DNA of 41,836 bases, taken from positions 1 to 41,836 of the IMG/VR virus record IMGVR_UViG_3300013104_000041. One strand, 5' to 3'. Origin of the DNA: a virus. The position numbers were made by a program, and so were the translations under genes. Below the pieces are notes generated by a model. It saw only the letters and a list, made by a program, of their open reading frames with translations, was not told where the DNA came from and searched no databases. Positions 1-31,243 of the stretch are shown here, piece by piece; position 1 is the first letter of the stretch; every line of letters starts with the position of its first letter.

Positions 1-1070
1 ATCTCCTCAAGGAGATGGCGAGGGCTAAGTCCGAACTGCAGCGCCTCGGCGACCTCCCAACCGCGAACCAGACCGTCGAACAGTGGTTCCGGTATTGGCT
101 CAAGCAGACAGCGAAAGAGGTGCGCCCGAACACGTTCGATGGGTACAAGCGCACCGTCGAGAACCACATCATCCCCGCGATCGGGAAGGTGAAGCTCGAC
201 AAGCTCACCGCCACCCACATTCGACGCGTGCATGACAGCATCATCGCGAAAGGCCTCTCCTCCACCACGGCACTACTTGCTCACCGCACCATGTCGGTGT
301 CATTCAAGATGGCCGTTCGTGAAGGTCGCATCGGACGCAACCCTGCCGAACTCGCTGCGGCGCCGAGGAAAGCGCGAACGAGCCTCGAGACCTTCGATCT
401 GCCCGAGGCGCTCACGTTTCTCAAGCACGTCCTCGACGACAGCGCCGGCTACAACCCAGAAGGCGCACAGTGGGCCACAGCGCTCCTCACGGGCGCACGA
501 CGGGGCGAAGTGCTCGGACTGGAACGAGAGCGCGTCACGGACGTCCTCGACCTTTCCTGGCAACTCATCCGCCTCCCGCTATCGGGCACGGATGGGCGCC
601 CTGACGTTCCGGTCGACTACGAGTACCGTCACCTCACGGGTGGCCTGTACTTGACGCGGCCGAAGTCATCGAAGTCTTGGCGGGTGATCCCGCTGCTCGA
701 CCCGCTCAAGACGATCCTCGAACGGCACATGGTCGAGACGCCCGCGAACGAGTGGGGTCTCATGTTCACGAAGAACGGGCGACCCATCAGCCCAGATCAA
801 GCATCTCGAGACTGGCGCACCGCGGTAGCCGCAGCAGGCATCCAGAAGGATGCTCGATTGCACGATGCCCGCCATGCAACAGTCGACATGCTTTACGCGG
901 CAGGCATCCCCGAAGACGTCATCATGTCGATCGTCGGGCACTCGACGCGGACAACCACCCGCGGCTACCAGTCGGCGCAGAACCGTGACCGCCTGACCGC
1001 GGCCATGACCCAGTTCTCGGCCCTGTTCACGCAGCCCGAGACAGAACGTACGCGCGAAATAGCTTCGTAG
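1..1070 (+). CDS. int: Tyrosine integrase, C-terminal 355 residues (gene continues from 41716)
   Basis: This is the body of a phage-type tyrosine recombinase that would integrate and excise the genome at attP/attB. The frame is open from base 3, and base 41836 plus bases 1-2 make one codon, so it joins the fragment at 41716 into a protein of about 396 residues. In full-length numbering the catalytic set is visible: Arg207 in TGARRGE, a lysine in the PKSSKSWR hairpin, His328 and Arg331 in LHDARH, His354 in VGHS, and nucleophile Tyr363 in RGYQ. An N-terminal SAM-like core-binding domain (VEQWFRYWL onward) precedes them. The 3' end overlaps the convergent peptidase gene by 44 bases. Family assignment is firm; target-site identity is inferred separately from the tRNA-like attP. 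Confidence 0.95.
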   Translation, partial: LLKEMARAKSELQRLGDLPTANQTVEQWFRYWLKQTAKEVRPNTFDGYKRTVENHIIPAIGKVKLDKLTATHIRRVHDSIIAKGLSSTTALLAHRTMSVSFKMAVREGRIGRNPAELAAAPRKARTSLETFDLPEALTFLKHVLDDSAGYNPEGAQWATALLTGARRGEVLGLERERVTDVLDLSWQLIRLPLSGTDGRPDVPVDYEYRHLTGGLYLTRPKSSKSWRVIPLLDPLKTILERHMVETPANEWGLMFTKNGRPISPDQASRDWRTAVAAAGIQKDARLHDARHATVDMLYAAGIPEDVIMSIVGHSTRTTTRGYQSAQNRDRLTAAMTQFSALFTQPETERTREIAS

Positions 1071-1461
1071 TCACCCCGAGCTCAGCGACGATCTTCCGCT
1101 CGTCCGGGCACCACTCATACAGGTCGGCTAGTTCGTCAGGACAGATCAAGTTCTGCGCCGCGAACTGGTCGGCCTGTTTCTCATGCTTGGGGCGATCATC
1201 CTGATGCAGAAGCTCGAAGTGGGCGATCTCGTGCGAGAGCGTCAATCGCTGGTCACCCTTGCGGAGACGATCGCTCAGGATGATCTCGCCGTACTCGCGA
1301 AAGTAGATCCCGTTCGCCGTTCGAAGCCGGCGCACGAACACCGGGATGCCGAGCGCATCCGCGTGCTCCCACGGGTCGTAGTCGCGACCCCTAGGGAGAT
1401 TCAGGCTCGTCGTGCCCAATCTCTGGATCTCGGTTGGCTGCTTGCTCCCCCTCGAACGCAT
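1027..1461 (-). CDS. ImmA/IrrE-type metallopeptidase
   Basis: The 144-residue product carries the zinc-peptidase signature HEIAH (residues 77-81) and a downstream acidic segment EKQADQFAA, the layout of ImmA/IrrE (DUF955) proteins. Members of this family cleave or inactivate a partner HTH repressor and thereby trigger induction. Its gene overlaps the upstream repressor gene by 71 bases on the same strand, which fits a repressor/anti-repressor pair made from one transcript. The 3' end overlaps the integrase tail in the opposite direction. The role in induction is inferred from family and context; the catalytic motif is directly visible. Confidence 0.88.
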   Translation of the reverse strand: MRSRGSKQPTEIQRLGTTSLNLPRGRDYDPWEHADALGIPVFVRRLRTANGIYFREYGEIILSDRLRKGDQRLTLSHEIAHFELLHQDDRPKHEKQADQFAAQNLICPDELADLYEWCPDERKIVAELGVTTKLFRAYVLSRAA

Positions 1462-3840: not shown

Positions 3841-4286
3841 TCCCCGTCATCCGATCCGGCTCCATCGGCTCGCTGCTGATGGCGCTACTCGGCGTGCGAT
3901 TTTGCAGGCCATCTGACAACTCAATCCCCGCATATCCCGGTCGACCACCGGCAGAAATGAGCGGGGCTAACTCAACAGGGAAGTAACCCAGCAGGGTTCT
4001 GTTCGCGGTGACGTGGTGGTTCACGTGTGCTGATCGCAGTGGCTGGGGGTGACCGCGAAGGTGAGAAGCCGAGAAGCGGATCGAAGGAAGAAGAAACAGA
4101 TTGACCTCAGTGGCTACGGGGGCAGACATTCCTCATCGCATGTGCGGTGTCTGCTGCTACACGACGACGAGGCGCATAGAGGTGCGCTGACGACTCGTTA
4201 GGAACGGACTGAGGTAGCGCAGAGCCGTACGGGGTTGTCCGGGTTCGAATCCCGGCTGCGCACAAGCAAATGGAAAGGGGAGGGGC
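3841..4286 (+). other. 446-base non-coding stretch dense in inverted repeats
   Basis: No convincing gene is present. Several potential hairpins follow one another: CCCCGC (from about 3927) pairs with GCGGGG near 3960 around an inner CCGGT/ACCGG; AACCC-AGCA-GGGTT follows near 3987; TTCGCGGT near 4004 pairs with ACCGCGAA near 4055 around an inner ACGTG/CACGT hairpin. The stretch ends in a tRNA-like acceptor and T arm (4182-4263). This organisation suggests a structured RNA or a decayed gene. A short ORF at 3879-3986 lacks a ribosome-binding site. Confidence 0.45.
4182..4263 (+). ncRNA. tRNA-like acceptor plus T-arm element (not a normal tRNA)
   Basis: CCGGG-TTCGAAT-CCCGG (4239-4255) is a textbook tRNA T arm. 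GTGCGCTG (4182-4189) pairs with CTGCGCAC (4256-4263) in an 8-bp acceptor-like stem with one T/T mismatch. The 49 bases between the acceptor and T arm do not fold into normal D and anticodon arms; CGTT-AGG-AACG is a short hairpin there. The element could be a decayed tRNA or a tRNA-like end of a larger RNA. An HNH homing endonuclease gene starts 24 bases later. Confidence 0.4.
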
Positions 4287-4811
4287 ATGGAAGAGGAGCA
4301 GTGGAAGCCGGTATTCGGATACGAGGACCAGTACGAGGTGTCGAATCTGGGCCGCGTCAAGAGAACTGTCGATGGCCCGAGAACTTACGCAGGGCACATT
4401 CTCTCACCGCGCACCCACCCTTCCGGGTACAAGGTCGTGAAGTTGCGTAGCCGTTCTCACAGGGTGCACCGCCTCGTGGCGACGGCCTTTTATGGCCCGA
4501 GCAACCTGCTCGTCCGGCACCTCGATGGCGACCCGTCGAACAACCGCTTGGAGAATCTGCGATTCGGCACGCACGCAGAGAACTACGCAGACGCGCTTCG
4601 ACACGGAGATGTCAATCCTTTCCGAGCAGAGCCAGTCTGTGTTCACGGGCACGAGCTCACGGATGAGAACTCGAAGTTGAAGAAACTGCCGTCCGGAAAC
4701 ATCTGTCGTCTATGCAGAATTTGCATCCGCGCGTCTAACAAGCGATCGAGAGACCGCATCAGGCGCGCGTCGTTGGACCGCGACTCCCAGCAATCCTCGG
4801 GGCCGGTGTGA
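4287..4811 (+). CDS. NUMOD4-HNH homing endonuclease
   Basis: This 174-residue protein has an N-terminal NUMOD4 motif (EQWKPVFGYEDQYEVSNLGR, residues 4-23), a VHRLVATAFYG helix, and an HNH_3 core with HLDGDPSNNRLENLRFGTHA around residues 79-98. A C-terminal zinc-type module follows (VCVHGHEL then CRLCRIC), resembling that of the HNH protein at 2651. The ATG at 4287 is preceded by a good Shine-Dalgarno (GGAAAGGGG). Such genes are mobile and usually insert next to conserved targets; here the neighbour is the tRNA-like element. The domain calls are secure. Confidence 0.88.
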   Translation: MEEEQWKPVFGYEDQYEVSNLGRVKRTVDGPRTYAGHILSPRTHPSGYKVVKLRSRSHRVHRLVATAFYGPSNLLVRHLDGDPSNNRLENLRFGTHAENYADALRHGDVNPFRAEPVCVHGHELTDENSKLKKLPSGNICRLCRICIRASNKRSRDRIRRASLDRDSQQSSGPV

Positions 4812-5260: not shown

Positions 5261-5686
5261 ATGTCTGAACCCACCCGCAGAACGATCGTCCTTGGTGCCG
5301 CATGGTCGGTCCCTGTGATCGCAGCAGCCATCGCAACACCACTCGCAGCAGCGTCACTTCCGCCCAAACCGCCCACACTCGTCTGCACCCCACGCAACCC
5401 CTACGACGGTGACCTGCAAGCTGTGACGTTCGACGGCAAAACGATGATCATCCTGTTCCGCACGACCGCACGCAACTGGGTCGATGTGACCGTTCGACAG
5501 TCCGGTTTCAAGGAGATCCACTACAACCTGGGTGCACCGGGACAGCCGACGAACAACCAGCCGCACATGAAGAATTACACGCCTGGTGGAACGTTCGTCA
5601 TCACACTCCCGCGCGCATTCGACCGGACGTGTGACTGGTTCCAGGTGCAGACGATCCACTCCGACAACTGTGTGGTGACGCCATGA
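5261..5686 (+). CDS. Secreted protein with twin-arginine-like signal peptide
   Basis: The 141-residue product opens with TRRTIVLGAAWSVPVIAAAI, a paired arginine followed by a hydrophobic stretch and an AAAS/ALAA-type cleavage region near residue 31, so it is probably exported, possibly by Tat. The mature part is about 110 residues, rich in beta-forming sequence, with cysteines (VCTP, RTCDWF, DNCVV) that could form disulfides outside the cell. It starts right after a strong terminator and may have its own promoter in lysogens. No enzymatic family is recognised. A lysogenic-conversion factor is possible but unproven. The stop overlaps the next start. Confidence 0.75.
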   Translation: MSEPTRRTIVLGAAWSVPVIAAAIATPLAAASLPPKPPTLVCTPRNPYDGDLQAVTFDGKTMIILFRTTARNWVDVTVRQSGFKEIHYNLGAPGQPTNNQPHMKNYTPGGTFVITLPRAFDRTCDWFQVQTIHSDNCVVTP

Positions 5687-13971: not shown

Positions 13972-14570
13972 TCGAAAACGAGAAGCTGATCGAGGAAGCT
14001 GCGAAGGCGATGTGGGCCGCGAATGACCCCGAGGGGTGGGAGCGTGCCACGGGCGCAGAGCAGGCCGAGCACCTGACCCTTGCAAGCGCCGCTCTGGCCG
14101 TGTTCGAGAAGGCGCACCCCCCGACCGACGGCGAGAGGGAAGCGCTGAGCGAGTTCCTGTTCACCGTCTACGATCACGGGACGAATCCGAACGCACTCCG
14201 GGAAGCAGACGCAATCCTCGCCTTTCTTGCCTCTCGACGTTCAGTGACGATGAAGCCGAGCGCCGAGGACATTCGACTCGCAAGCCTCGCAGCGGTGAGA
14301 AAGGGTGCAAGGAGTGACGCGGAGGCCGTTCGTAACTACCGGGAAGCTGAGCGAGTCATCCGCGCGGCGATCCCGCATCTTCGTGGCATCCCGGAGCCGC
14401 AGGGCGAACCGTCCGACGCGCAGGTAGAAGCCGCCATCTCCGCCCATCGCGACTACCCGGGCGACTACATCGATCGATCGTCCACCGACTGGAACCGCGA
14501 CCGTATGCGCGCCGCTCTGCGTGCTGCATCCGCCGTCACCGAGCAGGGAGAGGGGGAGAACCATGGCTGA
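13968..14570 (+). CDS. Modular small-domain repeat protein (200 aa)
   Basis: The protein appears to be built from short helical units. Residues 7-50 (LIEEAAKAMW ... AALAVFE), 56-90 (GEREALSEFL ... ADAILAFLA) and 146-195 (SDAQVEAAIS ... RMRAALRAAS) look like separate modules. The last one is closely matched in the leftward gene at 38690, which has SDAQVEVAFA and RMRAALRAAF and the same ENHG/GNHG ending. The middle unit resembles the gene at 39001. The function is unknown. ATG 13968 overlaps the previous stop and has GAGGAGAG upstream. Confidence 0.65.
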   Translation: MIENEKLIEEAAKAMWAANDPEGWERATGAEQAEHLTLASAALAVFEKAHPPTDGEREALSEFLFTVYDHGTNPNALREADAILAFLASRRSVTMKPSAEDIRLASLAAVRKGARSDAEAVRNYREAERVIRAAIPHLRGIPEPQGEPSDAQVEAAISAHRDYPGDYIDRSSTDWNRDRMRAALRAASAVTEQGEGENHG

Positions 14571-14919
14571 TCAGAGCGCCGTCGAGCGGCTGGCGGATCA
14601 GTGGAACGCGACACCGGACAACTCGTCCACCGATTACGACTGCGGGCGGGTCGACCAGCGGCATGACATGACTACGCAGCTTCTCGAAGCGATCGAGGCC
14701 GACCGGGCGCGTGCCGGTGTCGTAGCCGAACCGGAATGGGAGTACGGCGTGAAGCCATACCCCGATCAGGACGACGTCTACTCGATAGGTGAGACCGCTG
14801 CACGTGTTGCGGTGCGCCGCGGATCTGATGAGGGCTACGAACTCCTGCGACGGTCGAAGACCATATCGGCTGGCCCGTGGGTGCCGGTGAAGCAGGAAGG
14901 AGCGGAGACCGATGGGTGA
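14563..14919 (+). CDS. Hypothetical protein (118 aa)
   Basis: ATG 14563 lies inside the previous gene's end (8-base overlap) with a strong AGGGGGAG ribosome-binding site. The product begins MADQSAVERLADQWNATPDN and has a C-terminal part with EWEYGVKPYPDQDDVYSIGE and PWVPVKQE, a small beta-rich unit seen in actinophage accessory proteins. No function is known. It overlaps the next gene by eight bases. Confidence 0.6.
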   Translation: MADQSAVERLADQWNATPDNSSTDYDCGRVDQRHDMTTQLLEAIEADRARAGVVAEPEWEYGVKPYPDQDDVYSIGETAARVAVRRGSDEGYELLRRSKTISAGPWVPVKQEGAETDG

Positions 14920-15544
14920 ACTGCTAGACGTCGTGGATGACTTGACCCTTCCACGTAACGTGAAGATCGCAACCGACGACGGACACACATGGGCAACCGA
15001 AGACGCGCTCCTCGTGCAACTCGAGGACGCGATTCACTCGACCACTGGGAGATCGGGAGGCAGATCCGCAAGCCACACTCGGATGATCCTCGACGCCGAC
15101 GCCCTGATGCAGTTCCATCGCATCACCTCCACGATCGGAGACTGGTGTCGCATGGCCGGCGCGAAGGTTGAACGAGACCCCGTGAAGGATCTTCGCGCAT
15201 GGCACGTCGCGATACTCAGCAGCCAGGATGACACGGACTTCTACCTGCGTGAACTGCAATCCTGGTCGGCGCTCATCCGAAGCAAACTCGCACCGCGATC
15301 GACACTCGAATGGCTCAAGCCCTGCCCCGAGTGCAACGCAGACGAATACGTGAACGATGAAGGCGAGACCGTCAGGCACCCGATCGTCATCGACTACGAC
15401 CCAGACGCGCCGTTCGCTTCAGTGCGGTGGACGTGCCGAGCCTGTGGAGAATCACGAGCGGGAGAGTTCGCGCAACGGGCGCTCGCATACGACGGCGAGA
15501 CACGCGGGCAAGAAGTGAATGACAACGGTGTAGTTTTGCCGTAG
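14912..15544 (+). CDS. DUF7341-like protein with zinc ribbon (210 aa)
   Basis: The 210-residue product starts with a beta-rich segment (MGELLDVVDDLTLPRNVKIA), has a long helical middle (LMQFHRITSTIGDWC; FYLRELQSWSALIRSKL), and ends with a zinc ribbon made of CPECNADEY and CRACGES. This layout resembles a common uncharacterised actinophage family that I recall as DUF7341; the name needs confirmation. It is the last gene before tandem hairpins and a terminator at 15557-15628. Confidence 0.7.
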   Translation: MGELLDVVDDLTLPRNVKIATDDGHTWATEDALLVQLEDAIHSTTGRSGGRSASHTRMILDADALMQFHRITSTIGDWCRMAGAKVERDPVKDLRAWHVAILSSQDDTDFYLRELQSWSALIRSKLAPRSTLEWLKPCPECNADEYVNDEGETVRHPIVIDYDPDAPFASVRWTCRACGESRAGEFAQRALAYDGETRGQEVNDNGVVLP

Positions 15545-15556
15545 TATCGACCCCGC

Positions 15557-15628
15557 AGGGCAGAAGTGTCGAAACTTCCACCCTCGTCCTTTGTTCCCCG
15601 TCGTCATCCGTGACTGGCGGGGATTTTT
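15557..15628 (+). terminator. Tandem hairpins ending in an intrinsic terminator
   Basis: A first hairpin has GAAGT (15563-15567) pairing with ACTTC (15574-15578), flanked by GGG/CCC. The second has CCCCG (15596-15600) pairing with CGGGG (15618-15622), with inner GTCA-TCCG-TGAC, followed by ATTTTT. This ends the early rightward transcription unit. Confidence 0.75.
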
Positions 15629-15764
15629 GTACTCCCGTGTACCCCACGTGGCAAGCGGCGGTCGAGACGCCGGATAACAACGGCACTCAGCGAATCCCGG
15701 TCGGTTCGCAACATCTGAATACGCGCTTGTCCCGTCGGCAGATAACGGGGCACACACAACATCT

Positions 15765-15850
15765 CCGTGCAGTGGTCGTCCTAGCTCAATCGGCAGAGCA
15801 ACCCCACCGGGTGCGTCCAGGATCAATGCCTGGGGACGGTCACTGCACGG
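15765..15850 (+). ncRNA. Cloverleaf tRNA-like RNA candidate closed by a 17-bp stem
   Basis: CCGTGCAGTGGTCGTCC (15765-15781) pairs over 17 positions with GGACGGTCACTGCACGG (15834-15850), with two G-T wobbles. Inside are three hairpins in tRNA order: GCTC-AATCGGCA-GAGC (D-arm-like, 15784-15799), ACCC-CACC-GGGT (15801-15812), and CCAGG-ATCAATG-CCTGG (T-arm-like, 15817-15833). The middle arm is about six bases too short for an anticodon arm, and the closing stem is ten pairs longer than an acceptor stem. It is thus tRNA-derived or tRNA-mimicking but not a normal tRNA. Confidence 0.6.
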
Positions 15851-15898
15851 TCAACCCCATCTTCCTTCGATACCCACCCTCAACGCAGGAGGCTGACG

Positions 15899-16180
15899 AT
15901 GGTCGTCATGTACGCGCTCACCGCACAGAAGCGTGCCGTGAAGCGACCGAGTCGAGGATCTGAAGCATGGGAGCCGGACACTGCCGGTTTCGAGAAGCGC
16001 TGGCCGAACGGGAAGAAGCCCGACATCGGCATGCGCAAGTCGACTGACTACGCCTCGCTCTCCGCCGAGGCAGTGCGGATGAACGCCTCGCAGATCGATG
16101 CGAACTTTCTGGACTGGCTGTTCGTTGTCGACGTCGACGCTCCCGTTCACACCTGCACCGAGAGTGAATCGGCGGCGTGA
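15899..16180 (+). CDS. Hypothetical protein (93 aa)
   Basis: The ATG at 15899 is preceded by CAGGAGG at ideal spacing. The protein is basic at the start (QKRAVKRPSRGSEAW) and has ASLSAEAVRMNASQIDANFL in the second half. No family is recognised. It is the first gene after the cloverleaf element and may start the pre-packaging transcription unit. Confidence 0.6.
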   Translation: MVVMYALTAQKRAVKRPSRGSEAWEPDTAGFEKRWPNGKKPDIGMRKSTDYASLSAEAVRMNASQIDANFLDWLFVVDVDAPVHTCTESESAA

Positions 16181-16181
16181 C

Positions 16182-16367
16182 ATGGCAACCGTCACCATCC
16201 GCCTTGACGGATACGTAGTCCCTGTAGCGGGCGAGTGCATCGATTGCGGTTTCGACGCGCTCCGTCGAGTCCGCGTCTATCACCTCGGAGCAACCGGAGT
16301 TACTACTCACGCAGACAAGACGTTCTGTGGAAGGTGTCGCGCTGAAGAGAAGCGCGCATCGCAGTGA
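16182..16367 (+). CDS. Small zinc-ribbon protein (61 aa)
   Basis: The product has two cysteine pairs in zinc-ribbon spacing, ECIDCGFD and FCGRCRAEE, separated by a short beta region. The start at 16182 is chosen because it follows the previous stop by two bases; the frame is open further upstream but overlaps that gene. The function is unknown. Confidence 0.6.
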   Translation: MATVTIRLDGYVVPVAGECIDCGFDALRRVRVYHLGATGVTTHADKTFCGRCRAEEKRASQ

Positions 16368-16540
16368 AGATCACACTCGGCATCGTCGCCGGCATCACGC
16401 TCTCGATCATCGCGTACGCCATGAAACAACCCACACTCGACATGATCTTCATGCGCAACCCGCCCGAAACGCACCCCGACTGCAAACCGCGCTACTGGAA
16501 CAAACACGCCGGGGTCATCACGAGAGAGCCATGGACGTGA
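16364..16540 (+). CDS. Small membrane-anchored protein (58 aa)
   Basis: GTG 16364 overlaps the previous stop. Residues 3-20 (ITLGIVAGITLSIIAYAM) form one transmembrane or signal-anchor segment. The rest is a short polar tail ending HAGVITREPWT. The role is unknown. It overlaps the next gene by ten bases. Confidence 0.55.
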   Translation: MKITLGIVAGITLSIIAYAMKQPTLDMIFMRNPPETHPDCKPRYWNKHAGVITREPWT

Positions 16541-16698
16541 CCGTGTACACCTGCGAGCTCTGTGGACGCGAAGATGCATCCTGGGCAGTGATTATGCGGT
16601 GTGAGTCCGACTGTCTGCAAGAGATCAAGATGGCTCGCCGAGGCGTCCCCAGCCCGAAGTTAAAGCCGACAAGCGTTCGCTGGGAAGACTTCGACTGA
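16531..16698 (+). CDS. Small cysteine-containing protein (55 aa)
   Basis: The product contains YTCELCGREDASW and MRCESDC, giving four cysteines of zinc-finger type, then a basic helix KMARRG. ATG 16531 overlaps the previous gene. A double hairpin follows its stop. No family is recognised. Confidence 0.5.
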   Translation: MDVTVYTCELCGREDASWAVIMRCESDCLQEIKMARRGVPSPKLKPTSVRWEDFD

Positions 16699-16713
16699 AG
16701 ATTCGCAAGACTG

Positions 16714-16775
16714 CTCAACCCTGTCGGGGGTTGAGTGCCCACGGTGAGGTTGCTCTCACGCGGTGGGCATTTCTT
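16714..16775 (+). terminator. Tandem hairpins with terminator
   Basis: CTCAACCC (16714-16721) pairs with GGGTTGAG (16728-16735), immediately followed by TGCCCAC (16736-16742) pairing with GTGGGCA (16763-16769) and a TTTCTT tract. The second hairpin is the likely terminator before the HNH gene at 16800. Confidence 0.7.
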
Positions 16776-16799
16776 GTACCCACCGACATGGGAGAAGCC

Positions 16800-17390
16800 A
16801 TGAACGTATGCGTCATCGAAGACTGTGAATGTGAACAGTACGCCCGAAGCTATTGCCTGCGGCACTACAGGCGTTGCAGAAAGTACGGCGACCCGATCGA
16901 TCTTCGCAAGATGAAAAGGCGCCCGGCCGACGTGACGCTCGAGGAGTGGTTCTGGTCCCGCGTCGACAAGCAGTCGGAAGGGTGCTGGATCTGGACGGCC
17001 GCGCACCATAGTGGCGGGTATGGACAGATCTCCGATGGCGAGAAGATAGCCTACGCTCACCGGTTGGCCTACGAGTTCACAAAGGGCAAGATCGACGAGG
17101 GTCTCGTCATTGACCACACGTGCCGGGTGCGCGACTGCGTCAACCCCGAGCATCTCCAAGTGACCACGCACAAGGTGAACATGGAGAACGTGGTGAACAA
17201 CCTAGGCTCAGCTTCCGGCGTTCGAGGGGTGCACAAACTCAAGAGTCGGAACAAGTGGCGAGCTTCGGTAGGGCACAACGGTGTCCGCTACGTTGGCGGC
17301 GAGTTCGCAACAATCGAAGAGGCGGAGCGGGCGGCGATATCTCTCCGCAATCAACTGTTCACCAACAACCTGCCTGACCGCGTGGCGTGA
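16800..17390 (+). CDS. HNH homing endonuclease with AP2-like domain
   Basis: The 196-residue protein has an N-terminal cysteine cluster (CVIEDCECEQYARSYCLRHY), a recognition region with EGCWIWTAAHHSGGYGQ, an HNH_3 core HTCRVRDCVNPEHLQV (near residue 106), and a C-terminal AP2-like DNA-binding segment, GVRGVHKLKSRNKWRASVGH. This domain order is typical of phage-borne mobile HNH endonucleases. It stands between terminators, just ahead of the packaging genes, and is probably a self-mobile insertion. GGAGAAG precedes the ATG. Confidence 0.88.
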   Translation: MNVCVIEDCECEQYARSYCLRHYRRCRKYGDPIDLRKMKRRPADVTLEEWFWSRVDKQSEGCWIWTAAHHSGGYGQISDGEKIAYAHRLAYEFTKGKIDEGLVIDHTCRVRDCVNPEHLQVTTHKVNMENVVNNLGSASGVRGVHKLKSRNKWRASVGHNGVRYVGGEFATIEEAERAAISLRNQLFTNNLPDRVA

Positions 17391-17461
17391 TGGTGGCAGC
17401 ACGCAAGAACCACGCCAGCCCACGCATCATGCGACCCATGCGCGACTGGCTCGAGGACTAA
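17390..17461 (+). CDS. Possible tiny basic peptide (23 aa)
   Basis: ATG 17390 overlaps the HNH stop by one base and encodes MVAARKNHASPRIMRPMRDW plus three residues. It fills the gap before the packaging HNH gene. The overlap is the only support; it could be spurious. Confidence 0.3.
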   Translation: MVAARKNHASPRIMRPMRDWLED

Positions 17462-17465
17462 GACC

Positions 17466-17765
17466 ATGCGCGTGTGCAACGTACCTGGATGCCCGACCCC
17501 CACTGAGGTAGACCGGTGCTCGATACATCGAGTGCAACGTGAGCGCACGCGAGGCACACGGCAACAGCGCGGCTACGACAGAGGACACGATGAACTCCGA
17601 TCGCAATGGGCGCCACTCGTCGCCCAAGGCACTGTCCTCTGCTGGCGATGCAAGACGCTGATCCACCCCGACCAACCATGGGACCTCGGACACGACGACC
17701 ATGACCGCAGCAAGTACCGCGGACCCGAGCACCAACACTGCAACCGAGCCACAAACGGACGTTGA
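17466..17765 (+). CDS. Packaging-associated HNH endonuclease
   Basis: The 99-residue protein has an HNH motif built on CWRCKTLI, WDLGHDDHD and PEHQHCNRA (residues 59-96). Its position directly upstream of the terminase genes matches the HNH nucleases that work with the terminase of HK97-type cos phages during genome cutting. That suggests cohesive-end packaging, though it does not prove it. An N-terminal CNVPGCPTPTEVDRC may be an additional zinc site. Confidence 0.85.
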   Translation: MRVCNVPGCPTPTEVDRCSIHRVQRERTRGTRQQRGYDRGHDELRSQWAPLVAQGTVLCWRCKTLIHPDQPWDLGHDDHDRSKYRGPEHQHCNRATNGR

Positions 17766-17912
17766 TCGGATAGGCCTTCGAGTCCAAGTGCAACAGGGGT
17801 GGCACCACCCCCTCAGCCCTACTTCTTCCGGACCGCCGGGGAGGGCAACTTTTGGTCCGCCAGGTCAAACATTGTTCCGGTCGCTCGAATGTTCGACTCC
17901 CTGGAGGTTGTC
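17766..17912. other. Candidate packaging (cos) region upstream of terminase
   Basis: This 147-base gap contains a perfect inverted repeat GGGGTGG-CA-CCACCCC (17796-17811) and near-repeated GGACCGCC (from about 17829) and GGTCCGCC (from about 17854) units. It lies between the packaging HNH and TerS genes, the usual location of cos. No cleavage site can be read directly from the sequence. Confidence 0.35.
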
Positions 17913-18371
17913 ATGCCCAGTGGCGGACACGCTCGAAGTGGGCCGGCGCCTGATCCGAATGCGCTTCGCCGGGATCGTGCTGGCGACAAGGACTGGCTGA
18001 CCCTTCCCTCTGGCGGCTTCATCGGTGTCGTTCCCGAGTGCCCGCTTCCTTCGATGTCTGCCGCCGAGTCGGCTTTGTGGGAGCGCCTCTGGAGGAAGCC
18101 GCAAGCGTCGATGTGGGCGCATCTTGAGCTTGAGTATCAGGTCGCCGCTTATGTGCGTGCGTACCTTCGGTCGGTTGCTGCTGACGACGCTCCTGTCGGA
18201 CTGATCGCTCCAGTTCTCCGCATGGAGGCGGAGCTTGGTCTATCCACTGTTGGCATGAACGCTCTGCGTTGGAAGTTCTCTGCCGACGAGGTTGGTGAGA
18301 AGCGAGCAGCACCGGCCAAGAAGGGTCCGACGATGAAGGACCGTCTGAAGGTGGTCGATGGAAGCGTCTGA
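17913..18371 (+). CDS. terS: Terminase small subunit
   Basis: The ATG at 17913 has CTGGAGG upstream with good spacing; upstream in-frame sequence lacks such a site. The 152-residue protein has a TerS-like helical core: MSAAESALWERLWRKPQASM, EYQVAAYVRAYLRSVA and GLSTVGMNALRWKF, ending in a basic tail. It should recognise the packaging site and load the large subunit. The identification leans on position directly before TerL (14-base overlap) and helical composition. Confidence 0.8.
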   Translation: MPSGGHARSGPAPDPNALRRDRAGDKDWLTLPSGGFIGVVPECPLPSMSAAESALWERLWRKPQASMWAHLELEYQVAAYVRAYLRSVAADDAPVGLIAPVLRMEAELGLSTVGMNALRWKFSADEVGEKRAAPAKKGPTMKDRLKVVDGSV

Positions 18372-19959
18372 CACCCTCGGGGTTGTCGCTGCTTGGATCG
18401 AGGCGCATTGTGTCATCCCTGATGGTGATGACGTTGGTCGTCCGTTTGAGCTTGGCGGCGAGCAGTTCGCGTTCGTAGTGAATCACTACCGCGTCCGGCA
18501 GGATGCTGACACTGGTCGCATCGTGAAACCTGTTGATGCGTTCACGTTCCGTCGTTCGCAGCTAGTTCGTGCACAGAAGTGGGGCAAGTCTCCGTTGATC
18601 GGCGCGTTCGTCTGCGCTGAGGGAGTGGGGCCGGTGGTTTTCACGGGCCGCGCCCACGGTGGCGAGGTCTATGACTGCCGCGACTTCGGTTGCGGTTGTG
18701 GCTGGGAGTACGAGTACGAAGAGCGCGAGCCGATGGGGCGCCCTTGGTCGACTCCACTGATTCAGATCACCGCAACGTCGGAGGATCAGACAGACAACAC
18801 GTACGACGCGCTTCGCCCGATGATCGACAAGGGGCCGTTGACGGATCTGATCCCGAAGACGGGCGAGGAGTTCATCCGTCTTCCTGGTGGTGGCCGCATC
18901 GACGTGGTGACATCAAAGGCGAACTCTCGTCTTGGCCAGCGAATCACTTTCGCGGCGCAAGATGAGACGGGCTTGTGGGTTGCGTCGAATGGTGGGCACA
19001 AGCTCGCTCGGACGCAGCGCCGCGGCCTGGCGGGCATGGGCGGGCGCTCGATCGAGACGACCAACTCGTGGGACCCGGCGCAGGATTCTGTGGCTCAGCA
19101 GACGTATGAGTCGCAGGCCGCGGACATCAATAAGGACTTTCAGCAGCCGCCGGCAAATCTTTCGTTTCGCAACAAGGCTGAGCGGCGGAAGATCTTCGCG
19201 TTCAACTATCGCGCGGCTCCCTGGGTCTCGGTTGACGCGATTGAGGCAGAGGCGGCTGAGCTGCTCGAGAAGGACCCTGCCGACGCTGAGCGGTTCTTCG
19301 GCAACCGAATCGTCGCCGGTTCCGGCGCGTGGATGGATGCGAAGAAGTGGGAGCTCAAGCATGAGCCTCGCATCGTCGCCCCCGGAAGTGCGATCGTACT
19401 CGGCTTCGACGGGTCAGACGTCAACGACTGGACTGGCATTCGCGCCGAAACGCTCGACGGCTACCAGTTCACGCCGTCGTACCACGGTGGGCGCCTGACG
19501 ATCTGGGACCCCACGCAGCACGATGGTCGCGTACCCCGTGGTGAAGTCATGGCGGCGTTCGAGGAACTCTTCGACACATTCGATGTTGCTCGCGCATACT
19601 TCGATCCGCCGTACTGGCAGTCGGAGATCTCCGAGCTCGAGGGACGCTTCCAAGGCCGGGTCTTCCGGTGGGAGACGTACCGGCCGAAGCAGATGCATGC
19701 GGCGCTCGAGCGGTTCAAGACTGATGTCGTGTCGCCCGATTCGGGCTTCAGCCACGACGGCAATCCGACCGTGGCGACTCACATCCGCAACGCAGTCGAG
19801 GTCGCCCGGAACCCGTACCCGTCTTACCTGATCTTCAAGGCGTCTGAGACGCAGAAGATCGACCTCGCGATGAGTTCTGTGCTCGCGCATGAGGCTGCAA
19901 GTGATGCCCGCGCGTCCGGTTACGAGCAGGTCGAATCCAAGGTTGTTGTTTTCAGGTAA
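18358..19959 (+). CDS. terL: Terminase large subunit
   Basis: The 533-residue protein combines an ATPase and an RNase H-like nuclease. A deviant Walker A, RAQKWGKSPL, lies at residues 71-80; the Walker B-like acidic pair is in FAAQDETG (Asp202-Glu203). The nuclease domain has VLGFDGSD (Asp351) and YFDPPYW (Asp416). A cysteine cluster, YDCRDFGCGCGW at 105-116, sits within the ATPase domain and is less common. It powers DNA entry and makes the terminal cuts. Order and length are typical. Confidence 0.95.
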   Translation: MEASDTLGVVAAWIEAHCVIPDGDDVGRPFELGGEQFAFVVNHYRVRQDADTGRIVKPVDAFTFRRSQLVRAQKWGKSPLIGAFVCAEGVGPVVFTGRAHGGEVYDCRDFGCGCGWEYEYEEREPMGRPWSTPLIQITATSEDQTDNTYDALRPMIDKGPLTDLIPKTGEEFIRLPGGGRIDVVTSKANSRLGQRITFAAQDETGLWVASNGGHKLARTQRRGLAGMGGRSIETTNSWDPAQDSVAQQTYESQAADINKDFQQPPANLSFRNKAERRKIFAFNYRAAPWVSVDAIEAEAAELLEKDPADAERFFGNRIVAGSGAWMDAKKWELKHEPRIVAPGSAIVLGFDGSDVNDWTGIRAETLDGYQFTPSYHGGRLTIWDPTQHDGRVPRGEVMAAFEELFDTFDVARAYFDPPYWQSEISELEGRFQGRVFRWETYRPKQMHAALERFKTDVVSPDSGFSHDGNPTVATHIRNAVEVARNPYPSYLIFKASETQKIDLAMSSVLAHEAASDARASGYEQVESKVVVFR

Positions 19960-19970
19960 GGGGGTGGGCG

Positions 19971-21347
19971 GTGGTCATTCTTTTGACGGATCGATCTCTC
20001 ACGGTGACCGAAGAATCGTTCATCTCGAGCCTGCGGAACACTCTGGTTTCGTCTCGACTGACCACGCAGCACCTGGATGAGTACTACGAGGGCGCACACA
20101 AGCTCGAGCAGCTGGGCTTGCAGATCCCGCCCGAGCTCGAAGCGTTCTCCGTGGTGCTGAACTGGCCCCGCACAACCGTGGATGCGGTCGAGCGACGGCT
20201 GGACGTGCAGGGGTTCCGTGCAGGCGACGGCAAGCCGGATTCGAGCCTGTGGGACGTGTGGCAGTACAACAACATGGACGAGAGGGCATCGTTCGCGCAC
20301 ACGGATGCGTTGGCGCTGTCTCGGTCCTATGTGTGCATCGGCACGAACGAGAACGATCGCAATTTCCCGCTGATCACCGTCGAGTCCCCGTACGAGATGA
20401 TCGCCCTGCGTGACCCTCGCACTCACCGCGTTACCGCCGCTCTGCGGTCGTATGACCCGGAGGATGGCACGGGTCAGGACAAGCGCATCACGTTGTACAT
20501 GCCGAACTACACGCGGTGGCTGATCCGCGAGGGTTCGCGCTGGGTCGATGAGTTTGAGCGCGATTGGCACAACCTGGGTTCAGTCCCGGTCGTTCCGCTC
20601 GTGAACCGCAACCGCGCTACCCGCCGACCCGGCCTCTCCATCCTCGAGGGTGTTTCGGAGATGAAGGACATCATCCCGATCGCCGATTCGGCTTCTCGCG
20701 CTCTCACAGGTGCGCAGTTGCTGCAGGAGACGATGATTGCGCCGGCGCGCGGAGTGCTTGGCGCTACTAAGGGCGACTTCGTTGACCAGAACGGTCAGCA
20801 GCTTTCTGCTTGGCAAACGTACTTCGGTGCCGTGTGGGCTTTGTCGAACAAGGACGCGAAGACGTTCCAGTTCGACGCGGCCGACATGAAGAACATCGAG
20901 ACGATCGTCAACGTCTACGCGCGTCTCGCTTCTGGCGTCGGTTCGCTTCCGGTCGAGTACTACGGCCTGAACACGGAGAACCCGCCGTCCGCCGATGGGC
21001 AGCGTGCAGGCGAGACGCGGCTGATCAAGAACGCGGAGCGGAAGCAGACGTCGTTCGGTCATTCGTGGGAGACCGTGATGCGTTTCGTGCAGCGGTTCCG
21101 CACGGGGTCATGGGATCTGAGCGCGACCCGCCTGGAGACGATCTGGCGCGACGCGGGAACTCCGACGATCGCACAGATGACGGATGCGGTTGTGAAGCGG
21201 TACCAGGTCGGCCTTGTCGACTGGGAGACCGCACAGGAGCGCATCGGTGAGACGCCGGCAACGATCGAGCAGATGAAGGAGCGCCGTAAGGCTGACTTCG
21301 AGTCGTCCTTCACTGCTGGCGTCCAGAGGTTCGTCGAAGAGGTGTAG
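19971..21347 (+). CDS. Portal protein (SPP1 gp6-like)
   Basis: The 458-residue protein is of portal length and follows TerL. Features of the SPP1 gp6-like family are visible: VTVEESPYEM-type strands in the clip region, VPVVPLVNRNRATRRPGLSI, and a helix ALTGAQLLQETMIAPARGVL. It forms the dodecameric DNA channel at the capsid vertex. Translation probably starts at GTG 19971 after AAGGGGG. It runs almost directly into the MuF gene. Confidence 0.92.
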   Translation: MVILLTDRSLTVTEESFISSLRNTLVSSRLTTQHLDEYYEGAHKLEQLGLQIPPELEAFSVVLNWPRTTVDAVERRLDVQGFRAGDGKPDSSLWDVWQYNNMDERASFAHTDALALSRSYVCIGTNENDRNFPLITVESPYEMIALRDPRTHRVTAALRSYDPEDGTGQDKRITLYMPNYTRWLIREGSRWVDEFERDWHNLGSVPVVPLVNRNRATRRPGLSILEGVSEMKDIIPIADSASRALTGAQLLQETMIAPARGVLGATKGDFVDQNGQQLSAWQTYFGAVWALSNKDAKTFQFDAADMKNIETIVNVYARLASGVGSLPVEYYGLNTENPPSADGQRAGETRLIKNAERKQTSFGHSWETVMRFVQRFRTGSWDLSATRLETIWRDAGTPTIAQMTDAVVKRYQVGLVDWETAQERIGETPATIEQMKERRKADFESSFTAGVQRFVEEV

Positions 21348-30506: not shown

Positions 30507-31243
30507 TGCGTCGCATTCATCTGGGCGGGCTGTTGTTTGACGGTGGCTCAGGCGATACGACCTACACGATCGAGTCAGATTCGGTGCGTGGCTGGCTTCT
30601 CGACGGCGTGGACATGCGGTTGGAGCAGATGGAACGACCGGCAGAACACGGTTCGTTCTCGCTTCCGGGCTACCTCACGGGACGTTCAATCTCGTGGGGT
30701 GGCCTGATTCTCACTGATGGGCCTCAGGAGCAAGAGCATGCGATGCGCGCGCTCTCAGGGCTTCTTGCGAACGGCTTGACTGATCGACTGACCGTGGAGA
30801 ACAACTCCGCTCATTGGGCCGACGTGAAGCGCGCCGGCGAGTTCGATATGCGCATGCGGTCCTACGGTCGCGTCGCGTCTTACCGAGTGCAGCTGTGGGC
30901 CGCGAATCCTCGCATCTACGGCGAGGTTCGCGACTTCCCCGCGGGCGCCGCCGCGATCCACTACGGCAACTTTCCCGCCACGCCCCGTCTGCTGGTCGGC
31001 GCCGGCACTGGTGGCTACACGGTCACTGGTGCGGGTGGTCGCGTGGTGACGGTGACGACAGCGCCGGCTGGTGCTCACGAGATCGACTTCACCACGGGCG
31101 GTCTGTATCTGGGTGGCGTTCGTCAAGTGGGTGCGATCAGCGTCTTCCAGCCGTGGACGATTCCGCCTGGTCTGCCGGGTGTGACGGCGACGATCACTGG
31201 CGCACGTTCTCTGGTCCAGAGGGTGACCGACACGTTCATGTAG
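30506..31243 (+). CDS. Distal tail protein (Dit-like)
   Basis: The 245-residue protein follows the tape measure gene, as Dit does. ERPAEHGSFSLPGYLTGRSI and MRSYGRVASYRVQLWAANPR are typical of the siphovirus distal tail domain. It forms the hub joining tube and tip. ATG 30506 with AAGGAGG upstream is preferred over GTG 30503. Confidence 0.83.
   Translation: MRRIHLGGLLFDGGSGDTTYTIESDSVRGWLLDGVDMRLEQMERPAEHGSFSLPGYLTGRSISWGGLILTDGPQEQEHAMRALSGLLANGLTDRLTVENNSAHWADVKRAGEFDMRMRSYGRVASYRVQLWAANPRIYGEVRDFPAGAAAIHYGNFPATPRLLVGAGTGGYTVTGAGGRVVTVTTAPAGAHEIDFTTGGLYLGGVRQVGAISVFQPWTIPPGLPGVTATITGARSLVQRVTDTFM

Follow-up and report, generated by a model that had tools for sequence, protein, structure and literature searches.

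A non-decoding tRNA-like element ahead of the late genes of a phage, and the truncated or armless phage tRNA-likes to which it very probably belongs

According to passages in PMC4131195 and PMC11915505 (citing Mao et al. 2009), the mycobacteriophage DS6A has a tmRNA without a coding sequence, which consists of the tRNA-like domain only. As described in the same passages, a message-less molecule of this type strongly inhibits tmRNA whether or not it can be charged, perhaps by titration of SmpB. The element reported here lies at positions 15765-15850 (+ strand) of the window, by which is meant the whole stretch of DNA analysed, an IMG/VR virus record of 41,836 bases. Like the DS6A RNA it is a phage-borne upper half of a tRNA without an anticodon arm and does not decode, and in phages related to that of the window the slot is filled by message-less tmRNA domains. 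It differs in its acceptor (GTCGTCC/GGACGGT, not GGGGCUG/CAGCUCC, and without G3-U70), in having a 4-bp tRNA D-stem where tmRNA has a stemless D-loop, in its 17-bp stem and in the stub hairpin that stands where tmRNA has P2. The principle is known from the DS6A message-less tmRNA domain; the armless phage tRNA-likes described below are a variant of it, one that fails the defining features of tmRNA and of tRNA.

With ordinary phage tRNAs the element shares acceptor, D- and T-arms, T8, A14, the D-loop GG and the 15-48 pair, as well as the slot (L017-L020, L029 and L034); its anticodon arm, in contrast, is of 12 nt rather than 17 and its stem of 17 bp rather than 7, and both the 7-nt anticodon loop and CCA are absent. 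Armless mitochondrial tRNAs are also missing an arm, but there it is the D- or T-arm that is lost and the anticodon that stays, and the phage class shows the reverse. The surroundings recall the Q-pR'-6S-tR' region of lambda in combining a putative regulator gene, a promoter-like site, a short leader, a terminator-like hairpin, a tRNA-like RNA and late genes; unlike in lambda, the upstream protein is of the DUF7341 type, and no sequence relation to Q was found. In Shiga-toxin phages tRNA genes follow the lambda-type late control region. Literature searches, in a collection with few subscription papers, returned no description of anticodon-less or armless phage tRNAs.

The element and its fold

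The first-pass annotation had described a 17-bp stem with two wobbles that encloses three hairpins in tRNA order, among them mimics of a D-arm and a T-arm; its coordinates and pairing proved exact, and sequence and fold agree on the hairpins. The arms CCGTGCAGTGGTCGTCC (15765-15781) and GGACGGTCACTGCACGG (15834-15850) pair at 17 of 17 positions (15 Watson-Crick, 2 G-U). Both wobbles are acceptor pairs, 1-72 (15775-15840) and 2-71 (15776-15839), and the ten further outer pairs, as had been claimed, are perfect and lie beyond the acceptor (5' arm 15765-15774 and 3' arm 15841-15850, both from sequence and an inverted-repeat search). Inside this extension the + strand reads as acceptor 5' strand GTCGTCC (positions 1-7, 15775-15781), D-arm GCTC-AATCGGCA-GAGC (15784-15799; sequence, fold and class comparison), truncated anticodon arm ACCC-CACC-GGGT (15801-15812; 4 bp and a 4-nt loop with no anticodon, from fold and class comparison), variable region GCGT (15813-15816; class comparison), T-arm CCAGG-ATCAATG-CCTGG (15817-15833; sequence and fold) and acceptor 3' strand GGACGGT (positions 66-72, 15834-15840; sequence). 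A15 (15789) and T48 (15816) form the Levitt pair of the elbow.

The four helices (17+4+4+5) comprise 30 pairs, every one of them standard. The minimum free energy (MFE) of 15740-15870 was -53 kcal/mol, against -40.0 +/- 3.8 for shuffled sequences (z -3.4), and was reached by none of 200 shuffles; the MFE and centroid folds were both the cloverleaf, which bears out the fold expected from the first-pass annotation. A search of 14500-18500 for inverted repeats of 12 nt or more within 150 nt returned this stem alone, and the chance of ten outer Watson-Crick pairs at a given place is about 1.6e-6 at the local base composition. Two further contiguous stems of 17-18 pairs, with fewer Watson-Crick pairs, occur in the window (1119-1177 and 30666-30706). 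Stem length by itself is unremarkable within the window; the remarkable feature is the in-register succession of TA, D-arm, 12-nt hairpin, variable region and T-arm inside the stem. The element keeps T8, A9, A14, A15, G18, G19, the A15-T48 elbow pair, T55, C56 and A58. T54 is replaced by A, pair 3-70 is C3-G70 and no CCA is encoded, the acceptor 3' strand being followed by C at 15841.

Of the parts of a tRNA, the 7-bp acceptor, the 3-4-bp D-arm with GG and the 5-bp T-arm with an NTCRA loop are present. The canonical anticodon arm with its 7-nt loop is absent and a 12-nt hairpin stands in its place, which, as noted earlier, lacks a 7-base loop and has one of 4 nt; decoding is excluded because the anticodon loop is missing. 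ARAGORN found no gene in the window, Rfam at gathering thresholds did not find the element, and the Rfam tRNA model (RF00005) gave no match over 15600-15950 even at E 10. A covariance model (R1) made from 16 armless phage tRNA-likes, with the window sequence left out, detected the element at 23.7 bits (E 1.4e-7, E-values being rough), the match beginning at 15775. An exact-pattern search of viral contigs yielded no close homologue, and the blastn matches seen among named phages were D-arms of ordinary tRNAs or short chance matches. Because no close homologue was found, the ten extra pairs are without covariation support; the compensatory changes seen in the class are confined to its acceptor and T stems. 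With A for T54, no CCA and two wobbles at the acceptor end, the window copy stands at the less tRNA-like end of that class.

Setting of the element and the same slot in relatives

A tyrosine-recombinase-like integrase gene occupies the left end of the window (15-1070), and the phage was judged from its sequence to be temperate. Upstream of the element lies a DUF7341 zinc-ribbon gene (14912-15544, +; invariant CPxC and further cysteines), which marks the slot and possibly encodes a late regulator; some relatives' zinc-ribbon proteins also contain DUF7340. At the end of this gene is a promoter-like ATGACA-17-TAGTAT (15519-15547, +; shuffle mean 0.1), and beyond it an intrinsic-terminator-like hairpin CCCCG...CGGGG-ATTTTT (15596-15627, +), a near-identical sequence of which occurs in L078. 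To judge by these features, 14912-15627 may be a region that controls late transcription through antitermination. A similar layout of zinc-ribbon gene, promoter, short leader and terminator was observed in L078 and L082. The element is followed by the motif ATCTTCCTTCGA (15859-15870, +), the counterpart of ATTCCCTTCGA, which in relatives comes right after the tRNA or tRNA-like, and by AGGAGG and the ATG of the first gene (15887-15901, +; ORF 15899-16180). It thus sits 48 nt ahead of the first late-side start codon and before the late module HNH - small terminase (TerS) - large terminase (TerL) - portal (17466-21347, +), in keeping with the boundary between early and late genes at which it had been placed. 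A terminator role for the element was rejected, there being no T-run after its 3' arm, although L006 has one. A second tRNA-like RNA, of 48 nt, is found at 4216-4263 (+; R1 17.1 bits, E 9.4e-5); it has a 6-bp acceptor GCGCAG/CTGCGC, a perfect T-arm CCGGG-TTCGAAT-CCCGG and a short hairpin that replaces the D-arm, and an HNH-like gene begins directly after it at 4287.

The late module was used to find relatives, which were recovered by TerL (L002-L081); the slot was taken as the interval between the DUF7341 zinc-ribbon gene and HNH-TerS-TerL. Ordinary tRNAs lie in the slot region of L017-L020, L029, L034, L035 and L038, and most slot tRNAs of relatives are followed by ATTCCCTTCGA and then a ribosome-binding site. 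This motif or close variants of it were also noted after the tRNA or tRNA-like of L017-L020, L029, L035, L036, L038, L041 and L159. The slots of L036, L038 and L026 hold the tmRNA acceptor GGGGCTG/CAGCTCC, a T-arm and P2 with no message domain, and RNAs of L040, L041, L017 and L020 resemble message-less tmRNA domains when judged by eye. In L006 (TerL 82%) there is a degenerate tRNA (Rfam 40 bits) with its acceptor extended to 15 pairs. The slot of L159 (zinc-ribbon protein 47% identical) contains a clean tRNA wholly without an anticodon arm (GCTGTCG-TA-GCTC-AGTGGATA-GAGC-CATGGCGC-GCAGG-TTCGAAT-CCTGC-CGACAGC). Further tRNAs without an anticodon arm were found in the slots of L202, where the RNA comes after a DUF7341-type protein (32% identity), and L215, where it precedes relatives of HNH (55%) and TerL (52%); in L195 the element comes after a zinc-ribbon ORF, and AACTGAATAG just upstream is common to L195, L159 and L006. 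L202, L215 and L195 came from the context-free scan described below and were then placed in the slot or beside slot markers.

A structural scan of the relatives' upstream regions (~248 kb) recovered the tRNAs and tRNA-likes described above as far as L159, and the reversed or complemented sequences gave none. With all ten zinc-ribbon proteins the alignment proved too divergent to scan the collection, and with four of them few new loci came to light; a TerL search of bacterial genomes returned six loci, none of which was matched in the element scans run on them. Message-less tmRNA domains, known so far mainly from phage DS6A, were observed as RNAs of 75-105 nt (GGGGCTGA...CAGCTCCA) in 70 viral stretches, with sites at L036:4046-4128, L038:2506-2588, L082:7672-7762 and L084-L152. 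Of the tested domains, three (L100, L103 and L131) are called tmRNA by Rfam, and those of the window relatives that were scanned were missed by it.

Truncated and armless tRNA-likes in viral sequences

Viral contigs were scanned for D-arm letters and T-arm letters separated by 4-22 nt, a context-free pattern in which no acceptor was required, and at least 118 viral stretches matched the truncated or armless form. Among the matches listed, 32 of the 37 shorter-gap elements and 40 of the 64 longer-gap elements have six or more of the seven acceptor pairs, where about 1% would be expected by chance at a pairing probability of 0.37. Linker lengths among the matches listed are bimodal, with a peak at 8-9 nt besides the normal 22-23; an 8-9-nt linker is the variable loop that is left once the anticodon arm is gone. 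The elbow was assessed in the 74 truncated or armless elements among the matches listed with at least six of seven acceptor pairs, a set in which position 48 was fixed by no selection: positions 15 and 48 are G-C in 52 and A-T in 17 (Fisher 1.7e-16), and the five exceptions include neither G-T nor A-C.

Sixteen armless elements align without gaps, and all seven acceptor pairs change on both sides. Their acceptor covariation is 0.719, against 0.160 when shuffled and 0.10-0.19 with slid partners; the 16 had been chosen with at least six acceptor pairs, which biases the percentage paired and, to a lesser degree, the pattern of double changes. Between L238 and L246 the DNA upstream is nearly the same, but acceptor pairs 2, 4 and 6 differ on both strands. 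These two, and likewise L169, L179, L254 and L242, are near-identical tRNA-region loci in which the truncated tRNA-like shows exchanged acceptor stems and compensatory changes. Acceptor sequences across the class are arbitrary, without a consistent alanine G3-U70 pair. Mini-stems in the truncated linkers are only a little longer than in shuffled linkers (3.75 against 3.43), and conservation of the stub hairpin is unsupported. When 297 genomes of the actinobacterial class of L154 were searched with the pattern (8-16-nt gap), none matched, which points to rarity in hosts rather than absence.

Members of the class occur in named phages. Polaribacter phage Danklef carries one annotated as 'tRNA-OTHER, Undet', and the Lactococcus phages bIL309 and D2544 carry unannotated ones, with blast matches in P335 and TP712. 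In L284 (bIL309, AF323670, ~36733) and L285 (OP323071, ~21437), both from Lactococcus phages of the P335 type, the armless tRNA, with an ACC-GTTC-GGT stub, was seen 3' of the lysin gene. Armless tRNAs also lie within apparent late structural operons, the gene roles being judged from size and sequence: that of L239 is flanked by a scaffold-like and a capsid-like gene, that of L181 follows a capsid-like gene and that of L228 stands among tail-like genes. The L239 contig, with its armless tRNA near structural-looking genes, also has an abiF RNA (RF03085, 39.9 bits) at 5309-5346 (-).

The window element shares the features of the class, with a linker of 17 nt (limit 21 or less) and an A15-T48 elbow, and very probably is a non-decoding tRNA-like RNA of the truncated or armless kind. 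Its sequence marks it as a putative truncated-anticodon member with a lengthened acceptor.

Possible roles of the element

The structure, class membership, slot and sequence constraint of the element are supported by computation; since acceptor, D- and T-arms and elbow are all constrained, the tRNA shape appears to be what is kept. The first-pass annotation had proposed a tRNA mimic or a decayed, re-used tRNA. An origin from a tRNA and a non-decoding nature stand, and re-use is favoured over decay because a recurring phage class keeps the acceptor, D-arm, T-arm and elbow pair. For its transcription, stability, decoy action and target we infer the following. The element would be transcribed in the leader of the late transcript, 3' of the promoter and terminator behind the zinc-ribbon gene. 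Its lengthened acceptor would give a very stable RNA and may block normal 5' and 3' trimming. Acting in trans, it would most probably occupy a factor that reads the tRNA elbow and acceptor and has no need of an anticodon. The leading candidate is SmpB, the normal partner of which, the tRNA-like domain of tmRNA, is also without an anticodon arm, and SmpB stands in for that absent arm. Its occupation would inhibit trans-translation late in infection, as reported for the DS6A-like molecule. SmpB/tmRNA is put first among targets because message-less tmRNA domains share the slot and SmpB replaces the anticodon arm; against it, armless tRNAs retain a D-stem that tmRNA lacks and do not consistently have the alanine G3-U70 pair, and a common slot is no proof of common function. 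That the element is a trans-acting decoy of some kind we give an even chance, and SmpB/tmRNA is a possible but doubtful target. The best explanation as a whole, a non-decoding phage tRNA-like that acts as a decoy in trans with SmpB as the best single candidate target, is offered tentatively, at somewhat below an even chance; it counts against it that a continuous 17-bp helix would be a poor RNase P substrate.

The main rival to a decoy is a role in cis, in which the tRNA-like structure heading the late mRNA would serve as a cleavage signal for RNase P and RNase Z, or for RNase III acting on the stacked acceptor/T helix of 22 bp; cleavage would trim or protect the mRNA and release an RNA with no job of its own. 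The 48 nt to the first late-side start codon would suit such a signal, as would the many armless tRNAs that elsewhere lie in leaders or between late genes (L239, L181, L228). It would, however, have no need of a conserved 15-48 elbow pair or of a D-arm, the slot in relatives is occupied by complete tRNAs whose anticodons are intact, and the extended helix in the window hides the usual cleavage points; we regard a role in cis as unlikely. The element could also be a tRNA gene in decay whose anticodon arm is on its way out; the outer stem would then be a product of chance or recombination. The missing anticodon, the changed T54, the lack of CCA, the occurrence in one genome only and the functional tRNAs in the relatives' slot are all what decay would leave. 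Decay is nevertheless less likely because all 30 pairs are standard, with no unpaired position, and the pattern is repeated: this selective loss recurs in many unrelated phages, with the 8-9-nt linker peak and intact acceptors. The ten perfect extra pairs and the kept elbow pair also speak against it, and we hold it improbable.

A decoy or sponge might instead serve against an enzyme other than SmpB that attacks or modifies the tRNA acceptor or elbow, such as a toxin or a defence enzyme acting on the CCA end. The same anatomy fits, arbitrary acceptors are expected for a target recognised by shape, and loss of the anticodon would confer immunity to anticodon nucleases; yet no defence system was matched to the carriers in this analysis, no CCA is encoded, and the message-less tmRNA domains in the relatives' slot point to tmRNA partners. 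This target class seems to us quite unlikely. A remnant of an attachment site, or another DNA-level element such as an integration site or inverted-repeat operator, is highly improbable. The phage was judged temperate and has a tyrosine-recombinase-like integrase (15-1070), and phage attP sites often contain the 3' halves of tRNAs (PMC10865867), but the integrase gene is 15 kb distant and the element has a complete 5' half including the D-arm. A role as a repeated operator was rejected, GTGCAGTGG being found 18 times in the window against 13 expected, with no enrichment.

On the preferred reading of a decoy in trans, the window RNA very probably belongs to an overlooked virus-borne group, whose members are probably decoys rather than tRNAs for protein synthesis. 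A wider and still tentative proposal, to which we give well under an even chance, is that phages of several bacterial phyla encode an unrecognised class of anticodon-less tRNA decoys, made from the tRNA upper half and directed at factors that read the elbow (SmpB/tmRNA or defences that attack tRNA), that in the window's phage family the late operon is headed now by one of these, now by a message-less tmRNA domain, and that in the window RNA a 10-bp helix extension serves as armour. If these RNAs are functional, phages repeatedly strip the decoding end from a tRNA and retain the shape by which other factors recognise it. This would amount to a testable counter-measure or regulator of translation of wide occurrence, and would account for 'tRNA-OTHER' or unannotated entries in well-studied phages. 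Inhibition of trans-translation, so far tied to one mycobacteriophage, may then be common.
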